This document shows, piece by piece, positions 18,294-24,990 of a DNA stretch of 33,286 nucleotides. This DNA is from Methanobacteriota archaeon (GTDB lineage Archaea > Thermoplasmatota > Poseidoniia > Poseidoniales > Thalassarchaeaceae), in the NCBI GenBank assembly GCA_002713585.1, contig PATD01000029.1, positions 2,932 through 36,217 on the forward strand. Direction: 5' to 3'. Within the stretch, counting starts at the first letter, position 1; each line of letters starts with the position of its first letter. Made by a program: the position numbers and the translations under genes. The notes beneath the pieces are model-generated. The model was not told where the DNA came from. It did no database searches and worked only from the letters and a program-made list of their open reading frames with translations.

Positions 18294-19469
18294 ATGAAAG
18301 ATTCGCGTGTACCAGTAACTGTTCTGACTGGCTTCCTAGGTTCAGGAAAAACAACTCTCCTCAACCATATACTGACTAGTACGGAACACAATAAAAAATT
18401 CGCAATAATTGAAAACGAATTTGGTGACATCGGTATTGATGAAAACATAATCGTAGAGAGTTCAGAAGAAACACTAATTGAGGTTATGAACGGATGCCTA
18501 TGCTGCACCGTTAGAGGAGATTTGACTGAAGTTCTTGGTAGGATGTATGACCGGATAAAGGGCTTCGATGGGGTCATCATTGAGACTACCGGACTCGCTG
18601 ACCCTGCCCCAGTAGCACAGACTTTCTTTGTTGATGACAATATAGTCGAGCACTACAAACTCGATGGGATAATCACGGTCGTTGATGCAAAACACGTCGT
18701 CCAACATATCGATGAAGAAAAACCAGAAGGAGTTGAGAACGAAGCTGTTGAACAACTCGCGTTCGCTGATCGAATTATTCTGAACAAGATTGACCTTGTC
18801 GATGATGATGAATTGATTAATGTCGAAAAGAGGATCAAATCCATCAATGGTTCAGCACCAATACATAGGACTACGAATAGTGTCATTGATGCTGGAGAAC
18901 TAATCAATATCGGAGCATTTGATCTAAGCAACACTCTAGAGATGGACCCCGAATTCTTAGACACTGATGCTGAACACGAACACGATCAACGCGTAACCTC
19001 AATGAGTTCAAGATTTGAGGGGACTCTCAATGTTAACCGGTTGAATGAATGGATTAGTGAACTTCTGCAAACTCAGGCAAATGATCTGTTTCGCTACAAA
19101 GGTGTACTAGCGGTCGAAGGAGTCGATGAGAAATTCGTTTTCCAAGGTGTTCACATGTTATTCTCTGGCGGCTTTAGTGCTGAGATTGCCCCCTGGAAGA
19201 ATGATGAGACGCGGGAATGTCGTTTCGTATTCATTGGTCGCGACCTCGATCACAAGGCTCTGGAAGAAGGATTACTCGAATGTAAGGCAGAAGAGTTGCG
19301 ATTTGAAGTGGGTGATTTGGTCTACGTCAATATCGGAAGTTTTGCGCCAGGTAGGATTCTGGAGTGCTGGGATGAAGGGAATCCATATCGGGTTGAAGTA
19401 TTGAACGAAGAGAAGTCAAATGTCTGGGTGCCAATCGATACGGATCAGTTCGTTCGCCCAATGAGATGA
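18294..19469 (+). CDS. COG0523 (CobW/ZNG1-family) GTPase, putative metallochaperone
   Basis: VTVLTGFLGSGKTTLLNHILTS (Walker A), ENEFGDIGID, GCLCCTVRGDL (CxCC metal motif), ETTGLADPAPV, LNKIDLV; C-terminal CobW_C-like region RFEGTLNVNRLNEWISELL... . Confidence 0.93.
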   Translation: MKDSRVPVTVLTGFLGSGKTTLLNHILTSTEHNKKFAIIENEFGDIGIDENIIVESSEETLIEVMNGCLCCTVRGDLTEVLGRMYDRIKGFDGVIIETTGLADPAPVAQTFFVDDNIVEHYKLDGIITVVDAKHVVQHIDEEKPEGVENEAVEQLAFADRIILNKIDLVDDDELINVEKRIKSINGSAPIHRTTNSVIDAGELINIGAFDLSNTLEMDPEFLDTDAEHEHDQRVTSMSSRFEGTLNVNRLNEWISELLQTQANDLFRYKGVLAVEGVDEKFVFQGVHMLFSGGFSAEIAPWKNDETRECRFVFIGRDLDHKALEEGLLECKAEELRFEVGDLVYVNIGSFAPGRILECWDEGNPYRVEVLNEEKSNVWVPIDTDQFVRPMR

Positions 19470-19525: not shown

Positions 19526-19876
19526 GTGGTATGCAACGGATGTTGCTGTGGCCGAGTTGAAAAGGGTCACAATGAAGTTCCAATCCAGGCGCTAAAAACT
19601 GCTTGGGATGAATATGGCTTAGATGCGAATGTGAAACTTACGATATCCAATTGTCTTGGCCCATGTAGTATGCATAACGTTACGATCCTGAAAATAAAGG
19701 AGGATTTGACATGGTTAGGAAACCTCAATGGGGACAGGCACTACGATGCTCTAATCCAATGGGCACTTGATTACAACAGAAATGGAAAAGATGCGGTATT
19801 ACCAGAAATCTTGGTACATCAAAGATTTGAGCGAGCTCAGAAAGTAATAATTCGAGAACAGACGTTAGATGCCTGA
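19526..19876 (+). CDS. Thioredoxin-like [2Fe-2S] ferredoxin-domain protein, CobW-associated type
   Basis: VCNGCCCGRVEKGHNEVPIQALKTAWDEYG...VKLTISNCLGPCSMHNVTIL: CCCGR plus C-x3-C arrangement. Start uncertain (GTG at 19526, or upstream non-ATG). Confidence 0.78.
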   Translation: MVCNGCCCGRVEKGHNEVPIQALKTAWDEYGLDANVKLTISNCLGPCSMHNVTILKIKEDLTWLGNLNGDRHYDALIQWALDYNRNGKDAVLPEILVHQRFERAQKVIIREQTLDA

Positions 19877-19887
19877 TTATCAATTAC

Positions 19888-20859
19888 TCACTGGACTAGA
19901 GCCTCTCTCGTTTCAATTAGTTTTTTTTGGTTGATGAAACCTACAACTGTGGCCTTAATCAACCCTATAATTGCAAACTGTGATGCTGCAACAACTGCGA
20001 TCATCGAGCCAGTTCCAGTGTTCAACTCTGCTGCAAAATATATGCCAAGGAATGTTGCTGAGAAGCCAAATACTTGGGTCCACAACATACAACCTCGGAA
20101 ACTACGACTGACAATCTGAGCTGTAGCTGCAGGAGTGACCAAGAGCGCACTCACTAGAAGAGCCCCCACCAACTTAACCATACTGACCACAATAGCAGCG
20201 ACAGTAATACTGAACCAGAGACCAATGAGATTGACTGGAATACCTTGCATCCTAGCTGCAACACTATCGATAGTCATAGCAAGAAGACCACGATGAAGAA
20301 TTGCGATACTTGTGAGGGAAAATATGCTGAGCCAACCAATCATGCTCAGACTGTCTGAATCAATCATATTCAGACTACCAAATAGGTAGGCTTCGATATC
20401 AGTCGTGATTCCTTCACCATATAATCGGAGAATGACTAGACCAAAAGCGAGTGTTCCTGTCAGAAAAATTGCAATTGATGTATCTCCAGTTAGAATTTCT
20501 CTGTTTTGGAATTCATAAATCAGAATCGCGGCTATAACGCTGAATAATAATGCCAACCATAGGGGTGCGACCGATCCAAAGGCGACTCCAACTGCCATAC
20601 CTCCGAATGAAACATGTGCAAGCCCGTCCCCAATGAGTGCAAGATTTCTCAACATTAGGAACGTTCCAAAAAGTCCAGCAACAATCGAGATTAATAAGGC
20701 AGCGATTAGGGCTCGTTGAAACATCTCCCATTCAAAGTAAATTGGAAAAACGTCTCCAGGCATATATTGTCCTAGATACTCTAGCATTGGGCTGAGAACC
20801 AGAATCAACAAGTCCCCTAAACCGTCAATATCCCGATACCAAGAAAATGGTTCCATCAT
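19888..20859 (-). CDS. znuB: Metal ABC transporter permease (ZnuB/MntB family)
   Basis: MFQRALIAALLISIVAGLFGTFLMLRNLALIGDGLAHVSFGGMAVGVAFG...VKLVGALLVSALLVTPAATAQIVSRSF, typical of the ABC-3 family. Confidence 0.9.
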   Translation of the reverse strand: MMEPFSWYRDIDGLGDLLILVLSPMLEYLGQYMPGDVFPIYFEWEMFQRALIAALLISIVAGLFGTFLMLRNLALIGDGLAHVSFGGMAVGVAFGSVAPLWLALLFSVIAAILIYEFQNREILTGDTSIAIFLTGTLAFGLVILRLYGEGITTDIEAYLFGSLNMIDSDSLSMIGWLSIFSLTSIAILHRGLLAMTIDSVAARMQGIPVNLIGLWFSITVAAIVVSMVKLVGALLVSALLVTPAATAQIVSRSFRGCMLWTQVFGFSATFLGIYFAAELNTGTGSMIAVVAASQFAIIGLIKATVVGFINQKKLIETREALVQ

Positions 20860-21641
20860 TTCACCTCCTTAGACTGTTGAAGCAAATCGACTGAAAACGA
20901 TTCCTTCAAATTGATTCCGTTGCTAAAATTAGACAACATAAGGGAATTTGGAGACATCTCGATTTCCTCGTCCACATGGACATTACCATCGATACAAACT
21001 GCACAGTGAGTGCATCGGCTAATGGCAGTATGATCATGAGTAACCATCAAGAGAGTCTTACCTTCATTGCGACAAAGATTCTCTAAGAAACGAAGGAAAT
21101 CCTTCCGGGATTCTCGATCTACGCCCACTAATGGCTCATCCAAAATCAGAATCTCAGCATTTGATGCGAGTCCACGTGCAACTACTGCTCTTTGCCGTTG
21201 TCCGCCAGACATATGTCGAATATCACGATGTTCGAGGTCTTCCAAACCAACCATTCGTATTGCATCATCAATCCGTTTGTTTCGTTCTGTTCTATTTGGC
21301 CGAATCATGTTTCTCCAAGTCAATGTGCCAAGACCAACCAGTTCTCGTACCGTAATCCTGAGATTATTAGGGATATTAGATGCCGCTTGTGACACCCAAG
21401 CGAGGCGACCACGGGTCGCCATTGAGCCAGGAGTTTCACCGAAAACAGATACTGTTCCTTCTGTTGGTTGTAATTGACCAATAATTGTCAATAATAGAGT
21501 TGACTTTCCACTACCGTTTGGTCCTACAACTCCAACGAAATCCCCCTTACGGACATCGAGGTCGATGCCATCTAGAACGATGACACCGCCTCGATGGACC
21601 TTCAATCCCCGAATGGAGATAAGGATGTCAGCATCAGACAT
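20856..21641 (-). CDS. znuC: Metal ABC transporter ATP-binding protein (ZnuC/MntA family)
   Basis: VVGPNGSGKSTLLLTIIGQLQPTEG, MSGGQRQRAVVARGLASNAEILILDEPLVGVD, LLMVTHDH. Stop overlaps the permease start (ATGA overlap). Preferred start MSDADILIS at 21641 (ORF to 21665). Confidence 0.93.
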   Translation of the reverse strand: MSDADILISIRGLKVHRGGVIVLDGIDLDVRKGDFVGVVGPNGSGKSTLLLTIIGQLQPTEGTVSVFGETPGSMATRGRLAWVSQAASNIPNNLRITVRELVGLGTLTWRNMIRPNRTERNKRIDDAIRMVGLEDLEHRDIRHMSGGQRQRAVVARGLASNAEILILDEPLVGVDRESRKDFLRFLENLCRNEGKTLLMVTHDHTAISRCTHCAVCIDGNVHVDEEIEMSPNSLMLSNFSNGINLKESFSVDLLQQSKEVK

Positions 21642-21707
21642 GCTACGCCCACCGTGACCTCCCATTTCTGGGATTCGTAAGAATCACGAATTGGAGCCGA
21701 TTTTCAA

Positions 21708-24500
21708 TCAGCATTCCATGCCGGCCAGAAGGTTGTCAAGATTCTCCTTCATTAGATCAGCATATCCATCGTTTGTATCCTTAGGTGGCATCTCCATTGT
21801 GTGGAGCGTCTTCAGAATCACACCATCAGGCATAGTGCCTGATTTCGTCTGCTCGACCAGGGAATTCACTGAAGCTTCGTTAGTGTATTCTTCGACGTAG
21901 AAGATAGTGATACCTTCCTCCTCGATCTTCTCCACGACCTCTTGGATTTCCGCAGCACTAGGTTCGCCTTCGGGATCAAGTCCGTGGACTGTTACGAATT
22001 GTAGATCATAGCGCTCGGCCAGATAGGCATACGCATTGTGGTTCGCCGCAATGCTACGGGATTCACAAGCAGCAAGTCCGGACGAGAATTCCTCGTGCAA
22101 AGTTAGCAACTCAGCCATGTAGGCCTCGGCATTTGCAGTGAAATCTGCTTCGCCTTCCGGGAAGGCCTCAATCAATACATCACGGACCAATGCTGCTTGA
22201 GCACGGTAGGACAGGGGGTCGAGCCAGCTGTGTGGGTCGAAGCGGCCGAGGTCTTCTTCCTCACCATGGCCGTGGTCGTGAGCTCCAGCGCCTTCCTGGG
22301 CAATCGGTTCAATGTCCGTGCCAGCCGAGTCCTTGAGGTAGTGCTGATCGCGCTCAAACTCAGTAGGGACGTGTTGTGCATACATTGCCATGCCAGTGAA
22401 TCCAGACGTGTCAATGGTGTAAGTAGTATCATCTCCAGTGCCAACATGCAACTCAAAGCAGGTTCCACTTGCTGCGATTGAAGACATCGATTCACCGTCT
22501 TCTACAACTGTGCAATCACCATCTACCAATGCATCAACACCTGATTCAAGGGAGTGCATAGTATCCTCGGTTGGTGTATCAGTTGGGATAAGAACGAGCC
22601 ACATGCTTGGGTCGGCGTAATCGCCACCGACCTTTTGCATTGACCAAGTGTGAGTTGCATCGTTCATCTCAAAGATGCCCGCCCACTCAAAGCCATCAGC
22701 ACCATGCTCATCTCCATGATCCGAGTGATCATCGTGACCAGAATGGTCATCATGGTCATCATGGCCGCCAGGAACGATATGCATGGTCACGTCATGAGGT
22801 AGAGCGAACCCGTAGTCACCCTCTACCTCAATATGAATTGCAATAGCGCCAAACATTCCATCATGGCGCTCATGACCATCGTGAGAGTCTTCCCATGCAT
22901 GTATCGCTTCGATGAAGTGTTCCAACTCAGTCATATTGAGTAGTGAATTATTATCCATATCAGAATGGTGGAACATTGCCATTAGGTGGTTCCTCTCATC
23001 CATATCATCTTGTTGCATCCACATGAATGCATCACATGTAGCTGCAGACATATTTGGATCAGCAGCATGTGATATCGTGTTGTAACAACCAGTGAATGTC
23101 ATGTCACCCCATGACATGTTCGTCATGTATACGTAGGAACCGCAAGTTGTTTCATTGTCCATGCCTGAAATCATATTCATTTCAGAGTTGAAACAAACAC
23201 CCTCATCCTCGTGACCTGAGTGATTTGAGTGATCATCGTGGCCATGGTGGTCATCGTGGTCACCATCATGACGTTCACATTCCCAACCATCGGTGGCGCC
23301 AGTGGTTGAATTCGTAACTTCAGTGCATTCGTCTTCTTCGTATCCATCAGTCTCGTTGATGCTACCATCAGCATCCAACCATTCAGTCATCCAGCACTCG
23401 TAATAGTCATCATTAGAATCGATGGAGGTAGCGTTAACAGTACAACCGTCATAGAATTCATGATCGTCTTCAATCCATGCATGCCAGAATTCGTCCCATG
23501 AGATGCGGGTATCGTTATCCATATCATATTCTTGGAGTGCAAGTTCTGCGGTCATTCGTTCATCATCATGGTCGTCATGGCCATCAGAGTGATTATCATG
23601 ATCGCCCTCTTCATCTGAGTGATCATCATGGTCACCTTCTTCATCTGAGTGTTCATCATGATCGCCCTCTTCATCTGAGTGATCTCCATGTCCGTGATGA
23701 TCATGGTGTGCGTGACCTCCAGCCATCTTCAAGACAGACATATCGAAGGACATCATTTCCTCTGCCTCAAACTCTAGAACATAGTGACCCTCTTCCATGT
23801 GATACATCTGGATAACAGAGTCCGTAGGGCAACCTGCAGGATTATCCATTATCTCTTCAGGTGATAGGTGATCGTGTCCAGCATGCATGTCATGTTCGTC
23901 ATGGTCATCAACGCCTTCTATGTCATCACCGAGGGTTATTCCATCCCCATCATCGTCATGGTCATCGTCATGCATTGGGAAGGACAATCGATGAGCGACG
24001 TGTTCAGCATGAATCTCGTTAAGGTGGCCCTCATGACTCAAATTTGAACTCTCAAAGGGACCATCTGTGAGATGCTCACAGAGGTCTGCAACCAGCATAG
24101 CTTCGTATTCTAAGACTATGCTACCATCTGGAAGCGTATGAATGGGGACAAACTCAGGAGCGTCATCACCCATGGATTCTAGCGTTGTGTTGACCCATGT
24201 CTCAAGTCCGAGTCCATGATAAAAGAACACATCTGCGTCACGAAGATAAAGCAAATCGGTGCTAGTTGGCTCGTAATCATGCACTGGGACATTACTAGGT
24301 GCGAGCAATTCTACGTTGACACGATCGCCAGCGATATTCTCGACAAGGTCTTGAACGTGCCAAGTTGAGGTGTATACGGTGCCGAGAGTAGCTTCTGTCT
24401 CGGGTTGGTCTGCTACTTCTTCGGTAGACAGGCAGCCGGCAAGGCTGGTAGCTACAAGCAAAATTGCGATCATTACAGGACGTGCCTTAGGGTAGGTCAT
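21708..24500 (-). CDS. znuA: ZnuA-like metal-binding lipoprotein with very large His/Asp-rich, EF-hand-containing insertion
   Basis: Lipobox LLVATSLAGCLS; ZnuA N-lobe VYTSTWHVQDLVENIAGDRVNVELLAPSNVPVHDYEPTSTDLLYLRDADVFFYHGLGLETWV; C-lobe FDPHSWLDPLSYRAQAALV...SIAANHNAYAYLAERYDLQFVTVHGLDPEGEPSAAEIQEV...IFYVEEYTNEASVNSLVEQT; the intervening region is rich in HDDHDDH-type stretches. Confidence 0.9.
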   Translation of the reverse strand: MTYPKARPVMIAILLVATSLAGCLSTEEVADQPETEATLGTVYTSTWHVQDLVENIAGDRVNVELLAPSNVPVHDYEPTSTDLLYLRDADVFFYHGLGLETWVNTTLESMGDDAPEFVPIHTLPDGSIVLEYEAMLVADLCEHLTDGPFESSNLSHEGHLNEIHAEHVAHRLSFPMHDDDHDDDGDGITLGDDIEGVDDHDEHDMHAGHDHLSPEEIMDNPAGCPTDSVIQMYHMEEGHYVLEFEAEEMMSFDMSVLKMAGGHAHHDHHGHGDHSDEEGDHDEHSDEEGDHDDHSDEEGDHDNHSDGHDDHDDERMTAELALQEYDMDNDTRISWDEFWHAWIEDDHEFYDGCTVNATSIDSNDDYYECWMTEWLDADGSINETDGYEEDECTEVTNSTTGATDGWECERHDGDHDDHHGHDDHSNHSGHEDEGVCFNSEMNMISGMDNETTCGSYVYMTNMSWGDMTFTGCYNTISHAADPNMSAATCDAFMWMQQDDMDERNHLMAMFHHSDMDNNSLLNMTELEHFIEAIHAWEDSHDGHERHDGMFGAIAIHIEVEGDYGFALPHDVTMHIVPGGHDDHDDHSGHDDHSDHGDEHGADGFEWAGIFEMNDATHTWSMQKVGGDYADPSMWLVLIPTDTPTEDTMHSLESGVDALVDGDCTVVEDGESMSSIAASGTCFELHVGTGDDTTYTIDTSGFTGMAMYAQHVPTEFERDQHYLKDSAGTDIEPIAQEGAGAHDHGHGEEEDLGRFDPHSWLDPLSYRAQAALVRDVLIEAFPEGEADFTANAEAYMAELLTLHEEFSSGLAACESRSIAANHNAYAYLAERYDLQFVTVHGLDPEGEPSAAEIQEVVEKIEEEGITIFYVEEYTNEASVNSLVEQTKSGTMPDGVILKTLHTMEMPPKDTNDGYADLMKENLDNLLAGMEC
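23581..23700 (-). repeat. Tandem 30-bp repeat encoding the His/Asp/Glu-rich decapeptide HSDEEGDHD(D/E/N)
   Basis: Units at 23581, 23611, 23641 and 23671 are variants of tcatctgagtgatcatcatggtcaccttct; translated ...HSDEEGDHDEHSDEEGDHDDHSDEEGDHDNHSDGHDDHDD. Confidence 0.85.
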
Positions 24501-24564: not shown

Positions 24565-24990
24565 ATGAGCAGGATCCTATCCTTCAGTGTAGACAATGCC
24601 TTCGCAGACGATTTGGAAAAGATGGTTCGGGACACAGGGTACAGAAATCGCAGTTTGTATCTCCGAGATGCGAGCATTCATTTCTCAGACTCAAAGCTCA
24701 GAGGGGAATTGAATGAGATGGATTCCGATGTTAAAATCACAGGAACACTTGTCATCTACTATCAGCATGAAGTCGAGCATCGATTATTGGATCTCAGACA
24801 CTCGAAACTCATGACGGTCCAATCCTACCATCATAATTGTCTACCTACAAGCCATATGTGTGTAGATACAATGCAAATCGATGCTAATGCAGGGGATTTG
24901 AGGACAGCCATTTCAGAACTGAGAAACATTTCTGGCGTTGATAGAGTCGGATTCACATTGGCCCCCATTCGAAATTCAGGCTGTTGCTGA
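24565..24990 (+). CDS. NikR-like ribbon-helix-helix metal-responsive regulator
   Basis: N-terminal RHH ILSFSVDNAFADDLEKMVRDTGYRNRSLYLRDA; C-terminal ACT-like region TGTLVIYYQHEVEHRLLDLRHSKLMTVQSYHHNCLPTSHMCVDTMQIDANAGDLRTAISELRNISGVDRVGFTLAP; divergent from the metal receptor gene. Confidence 0.8.
   Translation: MSRILSFSVDNAFADDLEKMVRDTGYRNRSLYLRDASIHFSDSKLRGELNEMDSDVKITGTLVIYYQHEVEHRLLDLRHSKLMTVQSYHHNCLPTSHMCVDTMQIDANAGDLRTAISELRNISGVDRVGFTLAPIRNSGCC

Follow-up and report, generated by a model that had tools for sequence, protein, structure and literature searches.

The window analysed here is a stretch of 33,286 nucleotides of contig PATD01000029.1 (assembly GCA_002713585.1), from an archaeon of the class Poseidoniia (Poseidoniales, Thalassarchaeaceae), and the element of interest is a znuA-like gene that occupies a single open frame on its reverse strand (21708–24500) and encodes a protein of 930 amino acids (aa). 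Genes for an ATP-binding cassette (ABC) ATPase and a permease follow downstream, a gene for a NikR-like regulator is transcribed divergently, and the gene for a CobW protein is found 2.2 kb past znuA (Table 1). The arrangement of NikR-like regulator, znuA, ATPase and permease recurs in relatives, often together with CobW. An MntR/DtxR-type regulator gene (PF01325, PF02742; 27838–28284, forward strand) lies 3.3 kb from znuA.

The product of the znuA-like gene is a cluster A-I (ZnuA-type) lipoprotein receptor that is split at its flexible His loop. The family profile PF01297 matches it in two stretches (total E = 6e-59; 200 bits vs a cut-off of 29), with profile positions 1–73 on the N-terminal lobe and 82–261 on residues 729–925, and the break between positions 73 and 82 falls at the place of the flexible His loop in ordinary zinc receptors. 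The space between the lobes is filled by an insert of 622 aa, from about residue 131 to 752, which agrees with the original prediction, made from the letters of the DNA alone, of a ZnuA-like receptor with an insertion of roughly 600 residues. Alignment with AdcA places H74, H757, H821 and E870/E871 at the ligand positions (H, H, H and E/D of zinc members); together with the invariance of H74, H757, H821 and E870 across 22 homologues, this bears out the further claim that the ZnuA ligands are retained. Both lobes are recognisable. A Foldseek search with the whole-protein model matched many receptor structures (best E = 9e-14), over alignments of about 175–190 residues that cover mainly one lobe's worth. 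Nearly all homologues read have an LAGC-type lipobox, a lipoprotein signal from which it follows that the mature receptor should be anchored outside the membrane.

Table 1. Features of the znuA-like gene and its neighbours; residue numbers are those of the receptor.
Feature	Position in window	Strand	Basis
znuA-like gene, 930 aa	21708..24500	-	single-frame homologues elsewhere
Signal peptide, residues 1–35, lipobox SLAGC (Cys23)	24396..24500	-	sequence
ZnuA N-terminal lobe, residues 36–130, ligand H74	24111..24395	-	PF01297 1–73; alignment with AdcA 7jj8; predicted local distance difference test (pLDDT) about 80–95
Whole insert, residues 131–752	22245..24110	-	Pfam gap and composition
D1a, residues 131–175, motif EIHAE..SFP	23976..24110	-	conserved in Poseidoniia homologues read
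His/Asp tract 1, residues 176–212	23865..23975	-	sequence
D1b, residues 213–262, beta strands	23715..23864	-	conserved in homologues; weak model, pLDDT 50–79
His/Asp tract 2, residues 263–318, with 30-bp tandem repeat at 23582–23684	23547..23714	-	sequence
EF-hand-like loop 1, DMDNDTRISWDE, residues 326–337	23490..23525	-	relaxed pattern; Pfam EF-hand_7 E = 0.0047, below cut-off
His/Asp tract 3, residues 415–433	23202..23258	-	sequence
Cys-rich surface module, residues 433–496	23013..23204	-	similar modules in other open reading frames of relatives
EF-hand-like loop 2, DMDNNSLLNMTE, residues 514–525	22926..22961	-	relaxed pattern
D3, residues 551–575 (VEGDYGFALPHDV)	22776..22850	-	conserved in homologues; low-confidence strands
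His/Asp tract 4, residues 576–603	22692..22775	-	sequence
D2 domain, residues 604–738, FEWAG...D630...H710xPxEFE...H720	22287..22691	-	homology; model pLDDT 88
Short remaining His loop AHDHGHGEEED, residues 739–752	22245..22286	-	aligns with AdcA His loop
ZnuA C-terminal lobe, residues 753–930, ligands H757, H821, E870/871	21711..22244	-	Pfam; alignments with homologues and AdcA
ABC ATPase (ZnuC/AztA type)	20856..21665	-	PF00005; best NCBIfam AztA, E = 1e-50, below cut-off
ABC-3 permease (ZnuB/AztB type)	19888..20859	-	PF00950, E = 8e-53; best NCBIfam AztB, below cut-off
Divergent NikR-like regulator	24565..24990	+	PF08753; beside znuA in relatives
CobW/COG0523 GTPase, without D2	18294..19469	+	PF02492, PF07683; near znuA in many relatives
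Small Cys protein, weakly DUF1636 / 2Fe-2S ferredoxin-like	19526..19876	+	adjoins CobW in several relatives

The window genome is a fragmented metagenome-assembled genome of 48 contigs, and a receptor of this size might be suspected to stem from faulty assembly or from frameshifts that merged several genes. That explanation has a negligible probability and can be regarded as already refuted, given that the same single-frame architecture is found in many independent assemblies, one of which, genome G036 with the long homologue L041, consists of a single contig. By hand count, a homologue is present in 32 of 59 related genomes, and the position of the insert is identical in all intact Poseidoniia homologues read. 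The intact Poseidoniia receptors have a median length of 888 aa (range 667–1154; n = 18 read from the table), in contrast to a median of 328 aa for receptors from other Thermoplasmatota families (n = 81, of which 8 exceed 400 aa), which makes the long insert characteristic of the class Poseidoniia. One relative, genome G019, has two full receptor loci, one with and one without D2. Other families show loop inserts of different kinds: a ZnuA of 697 aa (L135) whose His loop contains about 370 inserted residues that look beta-propeller-like by eye and have no significant match among PDB sequences, and two of about 447 aa (L136, L138) with a third type of insert, of about 150 aa and without long His tracts. 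No characterised homologue with the insert, an outcome that would have counted against the original prediction, was found in open papers; closed papers may describe the cyanobacterial domain discussed below. In the passages found in Rinke et al. (PMC6461757), a zinc transporter is reported for most Poseidoniales and as absent from deep-water genera, and the insert is not described.

Rich in acidic residues and histidine (67 His, 98 Asp, 66 Glu, 12 Cys and 10 Lys plus Arg), the insert contains all four of the His-rich clusters first noted in it (residues 176–187, 263–292, 415–433 and 580–599). It is a chain of modules rather than one antenna, in which only D2 and, weakly, D1 and D3 are predicted to fold. 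The early description of a large metal-capturing antenna thus holds in part: the insert is His/Asp-rich, probably captures metal and sits in the canonical loop, but it is made of several modules. Read side by side, the homologues show the order D1a (EIHAE...SFP), His/Asp tract, D1b (E-G-x-Y-x-L-E-F...GGHAHH), optional D2, Cys units (CH...H.N......CEAAGH.W), EF-hand units, His/Asp tracts, D3 (E-G-D-Y-G-F-A) and, optionally, D2 again; D2 therefore stands after D1b or after D3, and sometimes at both places. Immediately before DPHSWLDP, the segment AHDHGHGEEED is left as a short His-rich remnant of the loop. Residues 260–561 are predicted to be disordered with very low model confidence, in a region where the alignment is shallow. 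The Cys module at residues 433–496 recurs in three fasciclin/cupredoxin-type surface proteins of relatives (L126, L127 and L128), which are built of fasciclin repeats and have a C-terminal domain that is cupredoxin-like by eye. Additional units occur in some relatives: calcium-binding units like those of class A of the low-density lipoprotein (LDL) receptor (CGDGSDE; E = 2.8e-7) inside the inserts of L035, L037 and L051, and a unit of about 110 aa (YSWYWQLMLWN...GWEVSNVGIDSV), matched to nothing known, inside those of L044, L049 and L051.

The two 12-residue EF-hand loops named in the original prediction are both present. Each fits a relaxed pattern (Asp or Asn at positions 1, 3 and 5, Glu at 12) but misses the strict PROSITE pattern, and Pfam EF-hand models stay below cut-off in the window protein (17.7 bits vs 30). 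When the insert was shuffled 2000 times, one relaxed loop arose in 0.45% of the shuffles and two never did. Equivalent loops are present in most homologues, and EF-hand models match at E ≤ 0.001 in 6 of the 22 aligned. Pfam EF-hand matches in homologues reach E = 1.4e-12, and one homologue passes the cut-off, at 48.2 bits. Loops so far above chance, backed by Pfam matches in homologues and by LDL-receptor-A-like units in some inserts, are what a calcium-gated metal antenna would display, in which Ca2+ sensed by the EF-hands would make the insert open or close, as was originally suggested. Seawater Ca2+, however, is nearly constant at about 10 mM. We consider gating very unlikely, because EF-hand sites at such a steady concentration should always be full and because several insert-bearing homologues, at least five, lack an EF loop despite the same insert position (L034, L042, L043, L048 and L052); a structural extracellular role also accounts for the EF-hands equally well. 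The EF-hand and Cys units, which vary among homologues, probably serve to fold and stiffen the insert, or to anchor it, once it is exposed to extracellular Ca2+.

The key part of the insert, D2, is a strongly conserved, unnamed domain that the original prediction overlooked and that is worth naming. Over about 135 aa it is mostly 65–78% identical across genera, above the identity of the lobes. No Pfam family matches it above cut-off. An AlphaFold2 model (mean pLDDT 88) predicts beta strands and one long helix; with this model Foldseek returned no solved structure at E ≤ 0.001, and the D2 profile found no chain among PDB sequences at E ≤ 10, so that assignment to ZinT or another solved fold was set aside. 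Candidate ligands, which might meet in one site, are E605, D630, H710, E714 and H720; the 100% conservation of the FEW.G and H.P..E motifs is partly due to construction, as the regular expression with which D2 was collected required both. Two copies in one gene (L034, 4235–5530) are identical over 405 nt, and two others (L080) are 99.5% identical; such near-identical pairs imply that intragenic copying or conversion of the module is still going on. By eye, D1b and D3 might be the halves of a degenerate D2 split by the other modules, an idea to which profile comparison lent no support, with probabilities below 1% for D1b–D2 and D3–D2 and of 8% for D1b–D3. A ZnuA of 464 aa from another family (L137) has a loop insert with FEWHG and EEGEFAIFLEH, weakly like D2 halves in swapped order; on the split-D2 idea this receptor gave only 5.5 bits.

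To map the distribution of D2, we scanned the genomes of 84,980 species, followed by phylum and class samples. All hosts of the domain that were read are ZnuA, CobW/COG0523 or exported His/Asp-rich proteins. D2 occurs alone in the ZnuA His loop of a Nitrosopumilus receptor (L089, 467 aa) and of two gammaproteobacterial groups (L076/L078 and L116–L118), and it likewise occurs alone in the same loop in small-genome cyanobacteria, presumed to be picocyanobacteria, where the znuA-type and CobW-type copies are no more than about 2 kb apart. In six COG0523 proteins (L091, L098, L099 and L119–L121) it stands between the GTPase and CobW_C domains. The exported hosts are L077 and L081, the latter encoded near a CobW gene; these two proteins are alike, and as they are labelled Euryarchaeota and Verrucomicrobiales, respectively, one label may reflect a binning error. 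In a tree, CobW-type and ZnuA-type D2 form separate groups (support 0.99), and the D2 domains of L076/L078 and of the exported hosts fall within the Poseidoniia clade (support 0.93–0.96). The receptor L076 is bacterial, with a C-terminal lobe 25% identical to that of the window protein, and its D2, at about 65% identity, falls in the Poseidoniia clade, which indicates that D2 is exchanged between bacteria and archaea separately from the protein that carries it. Its presence in other marine zinc proteins likewise makes the Poseidoniia insert a lineage-specific build-out of a wider theme.

These data bear on whether the insert has any part in metal delivery. It might instead be a surface spacer or adhesin that grew from low-complexity His/Asp DNA repeats, an origin that would suit the predicted disorder of residues 260–561, the 30-bp tandem repeat in tract 2, the intragenic D2 copies of L034 with their 405 identical nucleotides, and a Cys module common to other surface proteins. 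Conservation of D1a, D1b, D3 and D2 across genera, in the case of D2 at a level above that of the lobes, and the retention of D2 in unrelated zinc-type proteins argue against such an origin, and we judge it improbable.

Which metal is carried can be approached through the company of the receptor and of D2. We infer zinc from sequence-level indications, namely that the best NCBIfam match is AztC (below cut-off), that the partners of D2 elsewhere belong to zinc-type systems, and that the receptor is not associated with nickel superoxide dismutase (Ni-SOD). In Synechococcus WH8102, znuA is divergent from znuC, is repressed by Zur and is upregulated at low zinc (PMC9337993); the cyanobacterial D2 loci have the same layout, with znuA divergent from the ATPase gene. 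Poseidoniales ZNG1-like proteins, for their part, have been placed in one group with zinc-deficiency proteins of algae (PMC10642216).

Import of nickel, or of cobalt, would give the NikR-like protein the role of a nickel sensor, and it is suggested by the NikR-family regulator that adjoins the operon in almost every relative, by the Ni-SOD of many Poseidoniales (PMC10783094) and by the ability of His-rich tracts to bind Ni as well. The regulator matches NikR_C at 29.6 bits (cut-off 22) with its ribbon-helix-helix domain below cut-off; in alignments its metal site reads H-H-C-C (H2C2), changed from the H-H-H-C (H3C) of the nickel site, with a conserved C-terminal CC. It does not show the combination of ribbon-helix-helix domain, NikR_C and H3C site that characterises NikR, and it is possibly a zinc sensor. 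Ni-SOD and receptor are unassociated across genomes (21 with both, 11 with the receptor only, 14 with Ni-SOD only and 13 with neither; Fisher p = 0.30), and Ni-SOD is missing from four receptor-bearing genomes, namely the window genome (77% complete) and those of three close relatives. Given also the zinc-type partners of D2, we regard nickel import as unlikely and, for want of an association with Ni-SOD, set it aside.

We therefore favour zinc, and propose that the window protein is probably a membrane-tethered receptor of the ZnuA/AztC type with a zinc-scavenging apparatus of its own built into the flexible His loop. The His/Asp tracts and D2 would collect Zn2+ at the cell surface, at the mouth of the receptor, and the zinc would then be passed within the same molecule, via the short remaining His loop, to the site formed by H74, H757, H821 and E870. 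One chain would thereby do the work that for AztC falls to a separate chaperone, AztD, and the NikR-like regulator would switch the operon on under zinc shortage. Metal binding by D2 and the tracts is a prediction, and an AztD-like donor role is suggested by analogy, from the position of the insert and the company of D2. In the AztABCD system of Paracoccus, transfer from AztD to AztC requires the flexible D-loop of AztC, which precedes the DPH motif, and its three His (PMC7463823). There as, presumably, here, the flexible His loop of the receptor is the place where a partner that holds zinc acts; AztD, however, is a separate beta-propeller protein whereas the presumed donor lies inside the receptor, and among PDB chains, the solved AztD included, the D2 profile has no match.

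Several observations weigh against this proposal. The metal specificity is deduced rather than observed, and the regulator is NikR-like, not Zur. The whole-protein model has well-folded lobes and D2, but its predicted template modelling score of 0.45 does not fix the relative placement of the lobes. Among the candidate D2 ligands, H710 is replaced by Tyr in L066 and H720 is missing from CobW-type D2. Finally, D2 is absent from many Poseidoniia inserts, which means that it is not essential there.

In relation to known systems, the receptor is a member of an established family, and the insert makes it a new variant, one that is conserved and under-described. With ZnuA and AztC (PF01297) the window protein shares both lobes, the H/H/H/E ligands, the lipoprotein signal, the adjacent ABC ATPase and ABC-3 permease genes and the site of the insert, at the flexible His loop or D-loop; it differs in that its loop runs to about 620 aa, not some tens, and holds folded and calcium-type modules, and in having a NikR-like instead of a Zur regulator. 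AdcA of Streptococcus, a ZnuA–ZinT fusion (7jj9), also joins a receptor to an accessory zinc domain, although its ZinT is at the C-terminus, not in the loop, and D2 has no sequence or fold match to ZinT. Zinc-linked COG0523/CobW GTPases (PMC2770081, PMC10642216) are not receptors, and that of the window lacks D2, but some marine members have it between GTPase and CobW_C, a site where His stretches are common. The diatom protein ZCRP-B (PMC9010474) has likewise been proposed to be a membrane-tethered zinc concentrator for low-zinc seawater; it belongs to another family, related to NikA, with no evidence of D2. Extracellular zinc supply is also the role of the Anabaena exoprotein ZepA (PMC10957091), the neighbours of which include COG0523 and znuA, and which is reported to be absent from Archaea.

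A broader and more tentative proposal is that D2 may be a zinc-handling domain, shared by marine archaea and bacteria, that makes zinc receptors and zinc GTPases self-loading: the receptor would hold its own donor in the loop on which a chaperone acts, and the same module would serve outside the membrane in ZnuA and inside the cell in CobW.

Zinc is scarce in the surface ocean, where Poseidoniales are among the most abundant archaea. The reported lack of the transporter in deep-water genera, as far as the passages found in PMC6461757 go, fits the prediction of surface zinc scarcity. For annotators, the unclassified D2 domain offers a marker of zinc systems, and zinc hand-over inside one polypeptide becomes testable in culturable hosts. 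D2 and scavenging built into the loop are thus a testable candidate for how zinc is acquired at very low concentrations, one that covers Poseidoniales, Nitrosopumilus, picocyanobacteria and marine gammaproteobacteria and points to a way of scavenging scarce zinc that these organisms may share.

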